The notes under the pieces were generated by a model. It was not told the origin of the DNA. It was given only the letters and a program-made list of their open reading frames with translations, and searched no databases. From assembly GCA_020051695.1 (NCBI GenBank), contig JAGVQM010000026.1, forward strand, positions 1 to 64,000: a DNA stretch of 64,000 nucleotides. The letters run 5' to 3'. The translations under genes and the position numbers were made by a program. Source of the stretch: Candidatus Zixiibacteriota bacterium (GTDB lineage Bacteria; Zixibacteria; MSB-5A5; WJJR01; JAJRUJ01). Shown in pieces: positions 1 to 40,393 of this stretch (positions within the stretch are counted from its first letter, which is position 1; each line of letters begins with the position of its first letter).

Positions 1-1303
1 ACGGACAGTTCCAACCGTCGGGATACACACGGCCATCCAATTGATTATAGACGAATTTGCAGATGACTTGGACATCGAGCGGTGTGGTTCCGCCGTCGTC
101 GTTCATGTCGCCTTTCATGCCGCAAAAGCACGGGGCAACGGCCATGGTCCAGACATAATCGTCGTGCGCAGGGCCTTCGGCGTTGCCGCCAACCCAGGGA
201 TCGGTGTTGCCGTCGAGACACGCCCAATTCCGGGCGCTCCAGACATGATCCCAGCCCAAAGTGGCTTCGACTTCGCTTATTCCCGATGGCGGCAGTTGGC
301 ATAACGTAGCTCTAAACGTAAGGGAATCATCATCCCAGCCCACTTCGCAGATGTCACCCCACCAATCGCACCAGATCTCCGGCCAGGCGTAGGTGTTGCA
401 TTTTGTATCGAAGGTAATTGTAATCGTGTCGCCCAACCTGATAGGTGACGGATAGTCCACATTTTGGACAGCAATCGTGAGCACCGTGTTTTCTTGTCCG
501 GCGACCGCTAAATACGCTTCTGTACCTATTATTGCACATGATACCGGCCTGCACCACTGCCCGAATTTTCCATCCATGCGAGAGAAAATCTGTTCAATAC
601 ACTGTCCGATATAATATGCATACTGCTCTCCGACAACGCCCATTGCGACACGAGCGTTGCCATAATGCGGATTGACGAGATCGTCGATTATTGAACTACT
701 GTAGCACGCCTGAATAAATACTAATGCTCCGTCTATATGGCCGTAAGCCCGGATATATGAATCCGTCACTGCGATGCAGGGATAATAATATGGAGCTGGT
801 GTTTCCATCGTTGTGATTTGGTAACTCGTATACTGGGAAAGATATTGGTCGTAAACCGAGTCTCTGGCCTCATAACCTTCTGTCGAATTGCTGTAAGCTT
901 CGACGGCCAACCTGTTCAATAATCCGTGACTTTGGATCAACAGCGTGCCCAAATCGTCCGAACACGAGCCCAGTATCTCCTTAAAAACCGGTAGGGTGCA
1001 CCCTTCAGGTCCGGGCGAAGGTTCATTCCAATCGGTGAGTATATAGTCCGGTTCCCATGCATACCTTTGTCCGGTTGTGCCTTCGGTGTTGCCATGAACA
1101 TGATCAAAATACGCTTGCATGCCATCCCAATATTGCCAGGCGAAAGGCGCGTAGAGGAATAAATGCCAATCATTTCCCAAATTGTCACCCGGCGTATAGT
1201 TCGATTGCGCCAGCGAACAATTGTGGGAAACCACAACCACCAACATCGCCCAGGGTGTGACGATAACCAAAGTCCAGCAAAGACGATATATTGCCTTATT
1301 CAT
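1..1303 (-). CDS. Secreted clan CD (caspase-fold) peptidase-like protein with dockerin, cut by left edge
   Basis: The frame opens at the ATG at 1303, 7 nt after an AAGGAG ribosome site, and stays open to the left edge (434 codons) without a stop. Residues 1-32 look like a signal peptide ending S-L-A. Two blocks typical of caspase/gingipain/clostripain folds then appear in the right order: LGTLLIQSHG (H126-G127) and GALVFIQACYSS (A199-C200), each a hydrophobic strand followed by the candidate catalytic residue. A beta-rich region follows (about 220-390), then a dockerin calcium loop starting GDMNDDG at 398. In clan CD the His-Cys dyad cleaves after a specific P1 residue. The spacing of 74 residues is wider than in caspases, so the peptidase call rests on motifs only. 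It lies 91 bp downstream of the 1395-2210 gene and is probably co-transcribed with it. Confidence 0.62.
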   Translation of the reverse strand, partial: MNKAIYRLCWTLVIVTPWAMLVVVVSHNCSLAQSNYTPGDNLGNDWHLFLYAPFAWQYWDGMQAYFDHVHGNTEGTTGQRYAWEPDYILTDWNEPSPGPEGCTLPVFKEILGSCSDDLGTLLIQSHGLLNRLAVEAYSNSTEGYEARDSVYDQYLSQYTSYQITTMETPAPYYYPCIAVTDSYIRAYGHIDGALVFIQACYSSSIIDDLVNPHYGNARVAMGVVGEQYAYYIGQCIEQIFSRMDGKFGQWCRPVSCAIIGTEAYLAVAGQENTVLTIAVQNVDYPSPIRLGDTITITFDTKCNTYAWPEIWCDWWGDICEVGWDDDSLTFRATLCQLPPSGISEVEATLGWDHVWSARNWACLDGNTDPWVGGNAEGPAHDDYVWTMAVAPCFCGMKGDMNDDGGTTPLDVQVICKFVYNQLDGRVYPDGWNCP

Positions 1304-1394
1304 GACACCACTCCTTGTCGGATTGAACGCAATAGTGCGGACATGCGATGACGACAAAACCCGTCACCGCTTATTGAACCAGGAAATGCTAGAA

Positions 1395-2210
1395 TTACCT
1401 GAATTCTCGGGCGATTTTGTCGGCATATTCTTCTTTGCCGATTATTTCCGCGATTCTCTTTTTACGCTCTTCGAAATTGGAGATTGTGGCCACGGCCTCA
1501 CGCAACTGCAAGAAGGTCGTCTCTGAATGCGGATAACTAATTGAGTGACTCCGTTTGCCTTCTTGGATGACCAATGCACCTTCTTTAAGCGTGATGATGA
1601 GGCGGTTGGCATATACCTGGAGCTTACTTCGGTTGTGTTCCAGGGCATCCGTTGAGATGGCATGAGGATTCGACGTAAGCCATAGTTCCTTTTCCCATTG
1701 ATATATAGTATCACGATAGCGGATGATTTGCTCCGTCAAAGTGTAGGCAGTGTCGATTGATTCTTGTGCTAATAAGAATGACAAGACACTATCGCGTGCT
1801 TCCGCAACTCCAAGAGAGTCGCGAAAGTCGGCGAAAATATCAAGTGCCTTGATGATGGCGGCATATGCACCGGTTGCAGTAGATTTGGTTAATTTCGCGC
1901 TTTCTTCGACAAACTCTGGTTTTGAAGTAAACACAGCCAAGCCATTGACCGTCACCGAGCTATCCGTCGTAGCCACAGTGTACGGCGGTTCCACCAGCAG
2001 GCCGTCCAGGATGAGCCAGCCGGTTTTGACCGCCGATGTATCGTTTCGGCGTTCGCGCATTTTTGAAAAGTATGCCTCACGCTCGGAATACCGCGCCGAG
2101 TCTGCTGATTGGCCGGCCATTTGGGCCGCTGCGATCGCCCCCAGAAAGACCGTCAGCACCAACGCCATGAACAGCCGCGCGATATTCCACGTAAGATTCT
2201 GTAATCTCAT
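1395..2210 (-). CDS. Secreted protein of unknown function (271 aa)
   Basis: The ATG at 2210 is preceded by a strong GGGGGAGGAAG ribosome site. Residues 1-29 form a signal peptide (hydrophobic ALVLTVFLGAIAAAQ), so the product is exported. The mature part is largely charged and helical: a short beta-like stretch (about 60-95, ending TVNGLAVFTSKPEF), then long helices with Arg/Lys/Glu-rich segments, ending EEYADKIAREFR. I recognise no family. It is the first gene of a probable two-gene operon with the caspase-fold dockerin protein downstream, so it could be that protein's partner or substrate, but this is inference from position only. Confidence 0.7.
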   Translation of the reverse strand: MRLQNLTWNIARLFMALVLTVFLGAIAAAQMAGQSADSARYSEREAYFSKMRERRNDTSAVKTGWLILDGLLVEPPYTVATTDSSVTVNGLAVFTSKPEFVEESAKLTKSTATGAYAAIIKALDIFADFRDSLGVAEARDSVLSFLLAQESIDTAYTLTEQIIRYRDTIYQWEKELWLTSNPHAISTDALEHNRSKLQVYANRLIITLKEGALVIQEGKRSHSISYPHSETTFLQLREAVATISNFEERKKRIAEIIGKEEYADKIAREFR

Positions 2211-2646
2211 GACTTCCTCCCCCGAAATGTTTTTTCACTTCCTACTATATATAACCCCGCTCAGCCAGTTTTGTTTACATCAACCCCTCCTTTTCTGCAT
2301 ATTTTTCTTCTTCCCAGGGCATATTCCACCCCATTTGTGACGCGGTTTTTCGATGTCTCCCGGAGAGTGCGCAAACCCGCCACTCTCTCAGGTGTTACTG
2401 CGGCTTTTGAACCGGCATCAACCGGTCTATTCTAAATCTGCGCGAATTACAATTTTTGTCAAGGATTATTCCGGGATTTTTTCGGGAAAACCGCCGAAGA
2501 CAAACATCGGATTATCGGCCCGTTAGGATGGCGGCACCAAAACGCCATTATCGTAGCCCATTCCCCGGTTTCTACAATTGACAGCAACCCGGATTGCACG
2601 TAAAATATATTGATAGGGGAGAAGCCGACCCAGCGGGGGAGAGGTT
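2211..2646. other. Divergent intergenic region
   Basis: This 436-bp gap separates divergent genes. It holds the consensus promoter of the plus-strand GTPase gene at 2578-2606. A hairpin is visible at 2363-2387 (GAGAGTG with CACTCTC, 11-nt loop). For the minus gene, a TTGACA (2462-2457) and a TATATA-like box (about 2245-2252) exist, but neither has a well-placed partner, so I do not call a minus promoter. No ORF here looks coding. Confidence 0.5.
2578..2606 (+). promoter_or_regulatory. Sigma70-type promoter of the TGS GTPase gene
   Basis: TTGACA (2578-2583), a 17-bp spacer and TAAAAT (2601-2606). The expected start of transcription near 2613 gives a leader of about 34 nt containing a GGGGGAG ribosome site just before the ATG at 2647. 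Confidence 0.75.
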
Positions 2647-3639
2647 ATGCCGGCCAATTTGCCGCCACAGTATATCGAGCTGGAAAGGGAATACCGCGCA
2701 GAAAAAGACCCGGCGCTCAAGCTCGAATTGTTACAACGCATGCTGGCTGAAATCCCCAAGCACAAGGGCACCGACCACCTGGTAGGCGAACTCAAGCAAA
2801 AAATCTCCCGGCTCAAAAAAGAACAAAAGCAGAAAAAATCCGGCGCCACGCGCCACGATGCGCCCGATCATGTGCCCAAAGAGGGCATCGCGCAATATGC
2901 GCTGGTCGGGCCGCCCAACAGCGGCAAATCGACGCTGCTGGCCGCGATGACCAACGCGACCCCGGAAATCGCCGATTTCGCCTTCACCACGCGCAAGCCG
3001 CTGCCCGGCATGACCGACTATGAGGGCGTGCAATTACAAATGGTCGATCTGCCGCCGGTCTGTTCTCAATTTTGTGAAAACTGGGTGACCAATATTGTGC
3101 GTGTGGCCGACATCGCGCTGGTAGTGTTGTCGCTGGGCGCCGATGATGTCCTGGACAGCTATGAAGACACCGTCAAACGCCTCGAACAGAGCAAGATTAT
3201 CCTAAACAATGATCCGCCGGCCATGGACCAGCCAGTCAACCTCATGAACAAGCGGACGATCCTGGTGGCCAACCAGGCCGACCAGCCCGGCGCGGATGAT
3301 CGGCTGAACATCATGCGCGAGGTCATGGAACTGCGTTTTCCAGTGGCGAAGGTCTCGGCCAAAACCGGCGAGAACCTTGATCAGTTGAAAAAAACGATGT
3401 TTTCCATTCTGGGCAAAATCAGGGTGTACACGAAAACGCCCGGCCGGGAAGCGGATTTCTCCGATCCGGTTGTCTTAAGTTACGGGGCAACGGTGGCCGA
3501 TGCCGCGCAGGTGATTCACAAGGACTTCGCCTTCAAACTGCAGTTTGCCAAGATCTGGGGACAACATACCTTTGACGGCCAGCGGGTGAAAGGCGATTTT
3601 GAAGTGCACGATGGTGACGTATTGGAATTTCACATCTGA
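2647..3639 (+). CDS. DRG/Obg-like GTPase with C-terminal TGS domain
   Basis: This 330-aa protein has an N-terminal charged helical region (1-66, coiled-coil-like, ending KKEQKQKK). A GTPase domain follows: P-loop GPPNSGKST at 88-96, switch II segment DLPP at 134-137, base-recognition NQAD and a VSAKTGEN G5 motif. The last 75 residues form a TGS domain (DPVVLSYGATVADAA...HDGDVLEFHI). DRG-type GTPases with TGS domains act on ribosomes or RNA; the exact partner here is unknown. The usual DxxG of switch II reads D-L-P-P, which removes the glycine that contacts the gamma phosphate, and the NKxD motif has Gln for Lys. Its own promoter sits 34 nt upstream. Confidence 0.85.
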   Translation: MPANLPPQYIELEREYRAEKDPALKLELLQRMLAEIPKHKGTDHLVGELKQKISRLKKEQKQKKSGATRHDAPDHVPKEGIAQYALVGPPNSGKSTLLAAMTNATPEIADFAFTTRKPLPGMTDYEGVQLQMVDLPPVCSQFCENWVTNIVRVADIALVVLSLGADDVLDSYEDTVKRLEQSKIILNNDPPAMDQPVNLMNKRTILVANQADQPGADDRLNIMREVMELRFPVAKVSAKTGENLDQLKKTMFSILGKIRVYTKTPGREADFSDPVVLSYGATVADAAQVIHKDFAFKLQFAKIWGQHTFDGQRVKGDFEVHDGDVLEFHI

Positions 3640-37321: not shown

Positions 37322-37654
37322 GTTGTCACCGTGTAAGAGATTTATTCGTTTTGTGTGTCACAGTATTGATCTTGCCCCGCGAATTCAAGCTAAATTCGGA
37401 GGAGTTGGTTTGTTCGTCGGACAATGCTCAGATTCTTGAGTTTCTTTTGACCATAGATTCACGGTTTACAAGTAAATACCCCCTAGTTAAGAGGGTTCCT
37501 TTTTAACGTAAATCGCGGCTCGACAACTTGGATTCTACAACCGGCGGTTTCGTTGCTCCAGGGGAACCACGTTCTCCCTCCGACAAACCAAATTGTCGTC
37601 GGAAGGGAATTTAAGGAGCGTTTGAAATTGCAAAGCGCAAAGGAGCAAGAAAGA

Positions 37655-40393
37655 ATGAAACATAAGTTAAGCTATTCACTCTTGCTTTCTCTGGTTGTGC
37701 TCTTTTCATTCAATCTCGCTCAAGCCCAGAATATTTCGATCGTCGGGCCGGATCCGGCACATGATCCTCTTCTGCCCACCACTGCTTATTGCTATGATGT
37801 GGTAGCGGATGATATGACCGGGATTACGGCGTTCACGATGGCGGTCGACGTCAGCGGCGCGGGTTTTGCCACAGGTTCCATCACCACCATGCCCGGTTTG
37901 GCCGGTGTTGTTGTCAACGTTGTTGGCGACCAGGTCCAGCTCGGCTATGTTGGCGCCGGTGGCGGCGCGCAGGAAGTGCTAATCACCATTTGCGTTACCA
38001 CGACTGACGTGTGTGGCGCGGATGTTGTGTTTGCAGAAGGTTTCTTCGGCCCGGCCCCCAGCGCATTTGCGCTCGGCGGTTGCGGTTCGGTGTACACCTT
38101 CACCGGTTTGACCAACACGCTGTATGATGGCACACCGGTCTGCGGCACGACCCCTGACGTAAATCTGGCTTGCGGCGGTACGATTGTCGATAAGCCGATC
38201 ATCGCAGCCGATCCTATCGGCTTGCCTTTGACGTACAATCAGATTGCCGGTGTGGGTTCCACGGACCCGGTTACCGGTCTGTACGACTACACCCCTGCCG
38301 GCAGCGAGTGTGACTTCACGTCGACGGTCGAAGTCGAAGTGACGAACCCTTGCGGGAACACCGCGGTCTGTTCGTTTGATGTCATTTACGACCAGGCAGC
38401 GCCGGTCCTTACCGTCCCCGCAGCTCAGACGGAACATTGGAATCAGGGCACGCAGTTCTACGCCGCTTCGGCGACGGATGACGGCTGCCCGGTTCCCAGC
38501 ACCCTGACCTACACGATTGAAGGTGTCGCGGGCGGCACGCCGGTCAATGGTATTGGCATTGGCGGCACCACCGGTGAAATCACCTTCGATCCGGACTGTG
38601 GCGATGTCGGCAAGACCTTCACCGTGACCGTCCGTGTAACTGATGGTTGCGAATTTGACGAAGATTCTTTCGACATTTCCGTGACCAACGACCTGCCGAC
38701 GATTGTTTGCCCGGCTGACGTCGACCCGTGGATGTCCTACTGGGGCCCCATGAGCCTGCCGTTCACCGCCGGTGATGCAAGTGATCCGGTTGTCGTAACC
38801 ATCCTTGGCGTGACCCAGGATGCCATCTCGGTTCCCGTCCCTGCTGGCATGTCCATTTCCGGGACATACAACTTTGGTTGGGATCCGGATTGGACCCAGG
38901 CCGGCCTGTGGGTGATTACGCTGCAGGTTGACGACGGCTGTGCGCAGGCGATCTGCGATTTCTCAGTCGTGGTCATCGACAAGTTCCACCTGGATATCAG
39001 TGATGTATCAGTTCTCCCGGGTCACAATGCCACGGTATTCGTGAGCATTAACGAATCGGAAGAGATCGGTGGTATGGACCTCCTGATCACTTACGATCCG
39101 ACCATCGCCTTCCTGTCGGCTGAACCGATGGGCGACCTGCTGGGTTGGGAATACTTCACCTACCGTAAATCCATGCAGGATAATTGCGGTGGTGGATGCC
39201 CGACCGGCGTCATTCATATTATCGCCATCGCCAACATGCCCGACGGCGTGACCCCGGCTGAATCGATCTACACCCCGAGCGGCAATATCATCTCGCTGAC
39301 TTTTGCCACTCCGGAGAGTTTCAATTACCTCAATCAGTGCTTCCACTTGAACTGGGGATTCTTTGACTGCACCGATAACACCATCTCCGATCGGAGTGGT
39401 GAAATCCTGTTTGTGGCCGAAGATACCGACCTGTTGTCGGACCCCGGCTGTCTGGAAGGGTTCAAATCTGATTGGAATCCCGTACCGTGGGTCAACTACT
39501 ATCCCGGTCAGATCTGCATCATTCCGCCTGCGGACGATCGCGGTGACATCAACTTGAATGGTATCGCGAACGAAATCGCCGATGCGGTTATGTTCTCGAA
39601 CTACTTCATCTATGGGCCGAGTGTGTTGCACGACGACACAATTCCCGATTATTTTGATAACCGGGTATTGGCCTCTGATGTCAACGATGACGGCACTCCG
39701 CTGACCATCGCCGACCTCGTGTACTTGATCCGCATCCTCACCGGCGACGCCATTCCGTACGGCGAATCCGGTGAAAGCAAAGTCGCTCCGTTTGCCCACG
39801 CGGCCGACGTGTCCTTCGAGCTTGGCAATGAGATGGTTGTCTCCGCCTACTCGCCGGTCGACGTTGGTGGTGCGGCGTTTATCTTCCGCCACACCGGCGA
39901 AATCGGCACACCGATTGCGACCGATGCCACGTCCGACATGACCATCCGCTCCTCGGATAAAAATGGTGAATTGCGCGTCCTCGTCTTCTCGATGGAGCAC
40001 AACACCATCGTTTCCGGGGCCAATGACCTGTTCACCGTTGCGACCAATGGCAATACCGTTGAATTGGTCGAGGTGCAGTTCTCCGACGCGGAAGGCAGCC
40101 TGCTTGCTGTAAACACCAACAAGATTGCTCCGCCGACAGCGTTCGCGCTGCTGCAAAACTATCCGAACCCGTTCAACGCGGGCACGGAAATCCGTTTTGC
40201 GCTGCCGATTGCTTCCGACTGGACCGTTGGTATTTACAACGTAGCCGGACAGCTGGTTAAGGAATTCAAGGGTGCCAACGAAGCCGGCATGGTTTCCCTG
40301 CACTGGGATGCCACCACCGCTTCGGGTATTTACTTCTACAAACTGACTGCTGGTGACTTTACCGACACCAAGAAGATGGTTTTGATGAAGTAA
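37655..40393 (+). CDS. Exported protein: Ig-like domains, cohesin-like, dockerin, sorting tail (912 aa)
   Basis: The ATG at 37655 starts a clean signal peptide (MKHKLSYSLLLSLVVLFSFN...AQA); an upstream in-frame start at 37553 is rejected. Residues about 25-440 hold a beta domain and Ig-like modules rich in Cys. The cohesin-like domain begins FHLDISDVSVLPG at 444 and contains GMDLLITYDPT and GWEYFTYR. The dockerin starts RGDINLNG at 629 (loops one residue long), and the sorting tail starts at 829 (QNYPNPFNAGT, IYNVAGQLV, TKKMVLMK). The last 600 residues are homologous to those of the 3498-aa protein. Likely a surface protein of the same system. Its terminator is shared with rtcB. Confidence 0.88.
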   Translation: MKHKLSYSLLLSLVVLFSFNLAQAQNISIVGPDPAHDPLLPTTAYCYDVVADDMTGITAFTMAVDVSGAGFATGSITTMPGLAGVVVNVVGDQVQLGYVGAGGGAQEVLITICVTTTDVCGADVVFAEGFFGPAPSAFALGGCGSVYTFTGLTNTLYDGTPVCGTTPDVNLACGGTIVDKPIIAADPIGLPLTYNQIAGVGSTDPVTGLYDYTPAGSECDFTSTVEVEVTNPCGNTAVCSFDVIYDQAAPVLTVPAAQTEHWNQGTQFYAASATDDGCPVPSTLTYTIEGVAGGTPVNGIGIGGTTGEITFDPDCGDVGKTFTVTVRVTDGCEFDEDSFDISVTNDLPTIVCPADVDPWMSYWGPMSLPFTAGDASDPVVVTILGVTQDAISVPVPAGMSISGTYNFGWDPDWTQAGLWVITLQVDDGCAQAICDFSVVVIDKFHLDISDVSVLPGHNATVFVSINESEEIGGMDLLITYDPTIAFLSAEPMGDLLGWEYFTYRKSMQDNCGGGCPTGVIHIIAIANMPDGVTPAESIYTPSGNIISLTFATPESFNYLNQCFHLNWGFFDCTDNTISDRSGEILFVAEDTDLLSDPGCLEGFKSDWNPVPWVNYYPGQICIIPPADDRGDINLNGIANEIADAVMFSNYFIYGPSVLHDDTIPDYFDNRVLASDVNDDGTPLTIADLVYLIRILTGDAIPYGESGESKVAPFAHAADVSFELGNEMVVSAYSPVDVGGAAFIFRHTGEIGTPIATDATSDMTIRSSDKNGELRVLVFSMEHNTIVSGANDLFTVATNGNTVELVEVQFSDAEGSLLAVNTNKIAPPTAFALLQNYPNPFNAGTEIRFALPIASDWTVGIYNVAGQLVKEFKGANEAGMVSLHWDATTASGIYFYKLTAGDFTDTKKMVLMK

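Follow-up and report, generated by a model that had tools for sequence, protein, structure and literature searches.

At the left end of the window, by which we mean the whole 64,000-nucleotide stretch of Candidatus Zixiibacteriota DNA analysed here, lies a minus-strand gene whose predicted product joins a candidate His–Cys catalytic pair to a dockerin. An earlier note, made from the letters of the DNA, had read this product as an exported, candidate clan CD cysteine peptidase with a likeness to gingipain and clostripain. This raised the questions of whether the gene encodes a caspase-like peptidase that is held outside the cell, which clan CD family stands nearest to it, and what the genes around it may contribute.

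Completion of the window gene and its signal sequence

The putative caspase-like dockerin protein gene runs on the minus strand from an ATG at 1303 to base 2 (2..1303), covering 434 codons before it leaves the window. The left edge of the window is base 1 of contig C6 and so is also the end of that contig, in a genome of 3.53 Mb and 43 contigs. We found that contigs C15 and C17 begin with the same 43 bases in which the C6 minus strand ends, and that contig C14 terminates in them too. Joining C6 to C15 or C17 extends the gene, which had been left cut at the left edge, to a protein of 471 aa with two dockerin repeats and a stop (434 of 471 codons in the window, the 3′ end on another contig), and the C15-joined and C17-joined proteins differ at one residue. 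Because this overlap completes the frame, we take the window gene to be probably intact and the contig to be broken, probably as an assembly artefact, inside a repeat common to two gene copies. The second copy of the peptidase-type gene, on C14, has 76% identical residues over 373 codons. The window gene is under purifying selection, with a dN/dS of 0.19 against this paralogue over 373 codons, which argues that it is more than a chance frame. Relative to the C6 copy, the C14 copy (L009, C14:1-1400) has a one-base frameshift near residue 374, which lies near the end of the contig and may be an error of assembly.

Residues 1–32 (1208..1303, minus strand) were recognised by eye as a signal sequence ending in CSLAQ, and the three sequences compared (the window gene, the C14 copy and the homologue in genome G001) all share A32 and Q33. 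The protein is likely to be exported. The window protein had nothing above the curated cut-off in Pfam or NCBIfam, and no match in PHROGs or among PDB sequences. One Pfam candidate, 4HBT, was rejected as below cut-off (E 0.1 and 0.082).

The dockerin end and its possible binding partners

The first dockerin repeat (residues 387–434; 2..145, minus strand) lies in the window and the second follows on C15 or C17 after the join, bearing out the dockerin end that the earlier note had described. The completed protein, with both repeats present, scored 21.6 bits (E 2.5e-4) against Pfam Dockerin_1 (PF00404, type I), under the cut-off of 22.9, and its homologue in genome G089 scored 39.2 bits, over that cut-off. 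The completed protein ends in the dockerin, and Pfam gave no Por_Secre_tail match that would mark a T9SS type A sorting domain. A search of its own genome with the window protein (E up to 10) gave 67 matches. Setting aside the two gene copies, all of them but one start at residue 362 or beyond, and that one starts at 313. The same genome holds 7 cohesin-like places over the cut-off among the 12 listed, with cohesin-like modules on contigs C37, C35, C20 and C6; the cohesin model also matched 2 of 14 control genomes, in one of them over the cut-off.

Elsewhere in the window, the protein encoded at 37661-40390, within the region 37553-40393, combines a T9SS type A sorting domain with a marginal match to cohesin, which scored 24.4 bits in the whole protein (cut-off 24.1) and 20.6 for the same place in the genome-wide scan; it is a possible surface scaffold for dockerin proteins. 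The genome also encodes five C25 peptidases, the window gene not being among them. By eye, L027 and, as far as its locus reaches, L029 carry dockerin repeats, L028 ends in a T9SS-like tail and L025 in a similar one.

Conservation of the histidine and the cysteine in a small family

Residues 33–375 (179..1207, minus strand; alignments A3 and A8) form the catalytic-type domain and a subsequent beta-rich region. A family profile, A3, built from the first four homologues, found matches in 5 of 132 genomes of the phylum at E up to 0.001. A wider contig scan, whose patterns reach close relatives only, returned two loci, both from Zixiibacteriota and both already in the family (G032 and G001); the relatives named here are Candidatus Zixiibacteriota MAGs. 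The six-member alignment comprises sequences from five genomes, two from the source genome itself (G000) and one each from G001, G089, G032 and G103. Identity between lineages is 30–44%, rising to 81% between the two own-genome copies, and 41 positions are invariant in all six members.

Within residues 33–382 the window protein has 8 histidines and 12 cysteines. H126, the candidate catalytic histidine (926..928, minus strand, codon checked; in TLLIQSHGLL), and C102 are kept in 6/6 homologues, and C200, the candidate catalytic cysteine (704..706, minus strand, codon checked; in LVFIQACYSSS), in 5/6. H68 is likewise kept in five and C302 in four, and the remaining histidines and cysteines of this region in three or fewer. 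The His–Cys pair thus stands where the earlier note had placed it, and the order, histidine before cysteine, is the one used to define clan CD in the available text of PMC4357240.

The G103 member departs at ten positions from a residue common to the other five members, among them C200 (Tyr) and G127 (Ala), and it looks like a pseudoenzyme. Behind its domain come a cohesin match of 18.9 bits, below the cut-off of 24.1, and, by eye, a T9SS-like tail; NCBIfam gave no match for its cut form. This raises an alternative for the whole family, namely a caspase-like, secreted and tethered protein that serves as a binding or structural domain and keeps the dyad for reasons other than catalysis. The loss of the cysteine and of the post-histidine glycine in one of six members, with 41 positions still invariant, is consistent with this alternative, as is the cohesin match with the tail behind it, and pseudo-orthocaspases have been put at 8.6% of bacterial orthocaspases in the available text of PMC6426788. 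However, five of the six members retain the dyad across lineages that differ at 56–70% of aligned positions, and we regard a non-enzymatic family as rather unlikely.

Both own-genome copies carry a dockerin. The remaining members differ in their C-terminal parts. The G089 protein has, by eye, a VWA-like stretch before its dockerin, the G032 frame runs off its contig, and the G001 protein reaches a stop, near a contig end, without a preceding dockerin. The G032 homologue also has an in-frame TAA between its His and Cys parts (L023:2978-2980).

Profile comparison places the family near C14 and CHAT

Family libraries did not identify the fold directly. Pfam gave no clan CD match for the family members (a scan of 7 rows, of which two come from a single protein), and the models for C14 (PF00656), CHAT (PF12770), C11 clostripain (PF03415) and C25 gingipain (PF01364) had no match in the window family. 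There was no CHAT place in the source genome at E up to 1e-8, and a PDB search with the family profile, taken to E 10, matched no chain. For profile comparison we used a panel of phylum sequences from places that received loci (34 for C25, 30 for C14, 30 for CHAT and 14 for C11, the last from 23 places after short, partial or stop-containing ones were left out). The panel was confined to these four families, C13 being too rare in the phylum for profile building (4 of 129 genomes). With hhalign, family alignment A8 scored 25.6 against CHAT, a value reached by 0/200 column shuffles, 23.4 against C25 (3/200), 17.7 against C14 (5/200) and 16.3 against C11 (50/200). The CHAT and C25 matches both place C200 on the catalytic cysteine; in the extended alignment H126 falls onto the histidine in CHAT only, with low per-column confidence, and not in C25. 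The family core alone scored 24.3 against CHAT. A reversed decoy reached 23.5, and the top-scoring shuffle, the one of 150 to equal or exceed the core, reached 27.1; the direct profile match to clan CD thus appears weak.

A second profile search, with A8 and a threshold of E 1, found matches in 11 of the 132 genomes, and two of these provided a route to known families. The G014 protein (L174) matched at E 4.4e-4 over model positions 84–213, the His-to-Cys core, and the G113 protein (L175) at E 0.006 per genome in a search of 132 genomes, a match that on its own could be chance. The two proteins, which we call linkers, resemble each other, keep the motifs STHGG/GHGG and IDAC, and have no clan CD family match in Pfam or NCBIfam. 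Weaker matches in G125 (L176), G099, G096 and G119 (E 0.19–0.28) were left out of the family. Against the family core the linker pair gave an hhalign probability of 93.8 and E 1.7e-7 over 119 columns (0/200 shuffles), a number that is partly circular because the linkers were chosen for their likeness to the family. The comparison of the linker pair with Pfam C14 sequences is not circular; it gave a probability of 93.4 and E 2.5e-7, with the histidines aligned to each other and the cysteines likewise, was reached by 0/200 shuffles and stood far above reversed decoys. When the linkers were added to the family, the eight-sequence core matched CHAT with a probability of 71 and E 3.7e-5 (0/150 shuffles), scored 24.0 against both C25 and C14 (0/150 each) and 15.5 against C11 (9/150). 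Homology to a recognised clan CD family is thus seen via the linkers only, the direct match being weak. On the strength of the linker route to C14 and the linker-added CHAT match, we judge it highly probable that the window family has a caspase-like fold, as the earlier note had proposed, and likely that this fold is nearer to C14 and CHAT than to gingipain or clostripain.

The spacing of the two residues was also compared. It is 74–83 residues in five members of the family (G032 was excluded because its frame is broken between them), against 31–51 in C25 (n=34), 25–56 in C14 (n=30) and 47–77 in CHAT (n=30) of the phylum. We dropped spacing alone as a proof of CHAT membership, given the H585/C627 pair of Craspase and the H2003/C2029 pair of separase, as numbered in the available text of PMC9729208.

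In clan CD the two residues of the dyad stand where two strands of a six-stranded sheet end on their C-terminal side. Structure prediction was of limited help. An AlphaFold2 model of the catalytic domain, made from few alignment rows, had a mean pLDDT of 36.3, with strands before H126 and C200 in a model too poor to decide the fold, and a partner-protein model, likewise from few rows, reached 57.0. At E up to 0.001 Foldseek found no PDB match for either low-pLDDT model, and the 50 matches listed for the catalytic model included no caspase. A different fold altogether, in which the His and Cys are conserved by chance and have nothing to do with clan CD, would fit the failure of family libraries and structure search to find clan CD directly, and direct profile scores that lie near those of decoys. 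Yet the linker route leads to C14 with both residues in register and far above shuffles and reversed decoys, the residues stand in the His-then-Cys order, and strands are predicted before both, albeit in a low-confidence model; we consider an unrelated fold improbable. A gingipain-like C25 peptidase is very improbable: although C25 peptidases occur in 60/60 genomes searched, two of this genome's own carry dockerin repeats by eye, a local profile match puts C200 on the C25 cysteine (0/40 shuffles) and the score with linkers added was reached by none of 150 shuffles, the histidine is unaligned, 3/200 shuffles reach the score of the family, the spacing falls outside the C25 range, and the linkers score 15.3 on C25 against 49.9 on C14. 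The likeness to gingipain and clostripain put forward in the earlier note does not hold up, since C25 and C11 are both weaker than CHAT and the linkers match C14.

The linkers themselves may represent a second unlisted group of caspase-like proteins. Both have export signals by eye, with a dockerin-like pair at the N terminus of the G014 protein and a lipoprotein-like signal in the G113 protein.

A partner gene upstream of the Cys-intact copies

Just upstream of both own-genome copies, on the same strand, is a gene for a signal-like protein of about 270 aa, which was absent from the finding in the earlier note. In the window this partner gene (1395..2210, minus strand) encodes 271 aa with an N-terminal signal-like helix by eye and the motifs WLILDG, EPPY and VNGL in that order, and its dN/dS against the C14 copy is 0.31 over 268 codons. 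We found the partner upstream of 5/5 peptidase-type genes that retain the cysteine, in four genomes of three families (two in G000 and one each in G001, G089 and G032, the last counted as Cys-intact despite the in-frame TAA noted above). Beside the Cys-less G103 copy the partner is absent, and the upstream neighbour there is dihydroorotase-like by eye.

The linkers bear on what the partner may be. The linker region ahead of the catalytic core matched the central region of the partner over 56 columns with E 8.7e-4 and a score of 27.8, above the best of 200 shuffles (19.7) and modestly above the best reversed or unrelated comparison (23.3). The score was 24.2 with query and target swapped, ranged from 24.6 to 29.4 when one partner was left out, and was 18.9 and 23.3 against the single linkers. 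Neither linker genome had a separate partner gene at E up to 0.01. These results suggest, short of proof, that a domain found ahead of the peptidase in the linkers exists in the partner as a chain of its own.

Independently of fold and enzyme activity, the upstream gene could instead encode a secreted protein that has no relation to the peptidase and is simply carried along with its gene. The pairing is one-sided: the partner family occupies 10 clear places in 5 genomes, with a short marginal match in a further genome, G095 (E 0.002), and 5 of the 10 lack an adjoining peptidase gene in the available DNA. Two of these five form a tandem on contig C32 of G001, about 3 kb or less from the contig end. 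Set against this are the position of the partner upstream of every Cys-intact gene and the part of it that the linkers seem to carry as a fused domain. We hold mere co-travel to be a serious possibility, at slightly under even odds.

In the G001 tandem (L043), the two partner-family genes have nearly identical signal sequences and divergent bodies.

A proposed tethered peptidase with a partner in trans

The reading that we favour, with a probability of about 0.52, is a secreted clan CD cysteine peptidase that is tethered outside the cell by its dockerin and acted on in trans by a secreted partner. It builds on the purifying selection, the dockerin repeats, the conserved dyad, the profile link to C14 and CHAT and the conserved gene pair. 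The peptidase and the product of the gene just upstream would both be exported, as their signals suggest by eye. The C-terminal dockerin would then bind cohesin-like modules of surface proteins, tethering the enzyme extracellularly, where C200, assisted by H126, may cut peptide bonds in proteins near the cell surface. The partner would probably act in trans on the peptidase domain, as a separate-chain pro-domain, a chaperone or an inhibitor.

A more specific version, a split-zymogen system outside the cell in which the tethered peptidase has its pro-domain or inhibitor encoded by a separate upstream gene that is fused to it in distant relatives, is suggested by the presence of the partner beside every Cys-intact copy, its absence at the Cys-less copy and its apparent fusion in the linkers; we consider this version doubtful. 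If the favoured reading is true, a phylum of uncultured sediment bacteria, rich in C25 peptidases as well, would have an unlisted family of secreted peptidases of the caspase-like type, and cohesin–dockerin tethering would again be serving proteolysis. The partner and its absence beside the Cys-less homologue would offer a simple way to test how a caspase-like enzyme outside the cell might be restrained.

Relation to known clan CD and dockerin proteins

The window family shares with C14 (caspases, metacaspases and orthocaspases) a dyad of His then Cys in SHG and AC contexts, and the linkers align with C14 over both residues. In contrast to C14, the window family has no PF00656 match and a longer His–Cys spacing than the 30 C14 sequences of the phylum, and the window protein has a signal sequence and a dockerin; the term 'dockerin' occurs 0 times in the available text of a 2012 survey of prokaryotic caspase homologs (PMC3501461). 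CHAT (PF12770, as in the TPR-CHAT of Craspase) is the best direct profile match, with an overlapping spacing; in the extended alignment both His and Cys fall in register, with low per-column confidence around the His. Unlike CHAT, the window family has no PF12770 match in Pfam, which found no TPR either, and it has a signal sequence, whereas the characterised TPR-CHAT is, in the available text of PMC9729208, activated by non-self target RNA.

Dockerin-bearing clan CD enzymes are already known in kind. As described in the available part of PMC8542988, Candidatus Stygibacter (Cloacimonadota) has a C25 peptidase with a signal peptide and a C-terminal dockerin, alongside a scaffoldin-like cohesin protein with a surface-attachment CTD. 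That enzyme resembles the window protein in clan, signal peptide and C-terminal dockerin and differs in family, the window protein not being C25. The dockerin-bearing putative cysteine peptidase RflaF_05439 of the Ruminococcus flavefaciens cellulosome, as far as the available text of PMC3573020 describes it, is unlike the window protein in having an NlpC/P60 papain-like fold. In open-licence PMC literature we found neither the window family nor a dockerin-bearing C14- or CHAT-like protein.

The duplicated unit

The peptidase-type gene and its partner belong to a duplicated unit that spans 1-2499 of the window, is 77% identical between its copies on C6 and C14, and takes in about 290 bases 5′ of the partner gene. 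An Rfam scan of window positions 1-3000 gave no match at E up to 1, and scans for promoters and terminators gave counts close to the chance mean (5 against 3.2, and 4 against 2.8). The stretch upstream of the partner gene that is common to both pair copies (2212..2499, minus strand; no Rfam match) has 84.7% identity over a 294-column alignment, more than the unit as a whole. Along the window gene, synonymous divergence from the C14 copy drops from a pS of 0.77 in the His half to 0.47 in the Cys half and 0.25 in the beta region, and the dockerin ends are almost identical; this falling pS and near-identity look like gene conversion at the 3′ end of the two copies.
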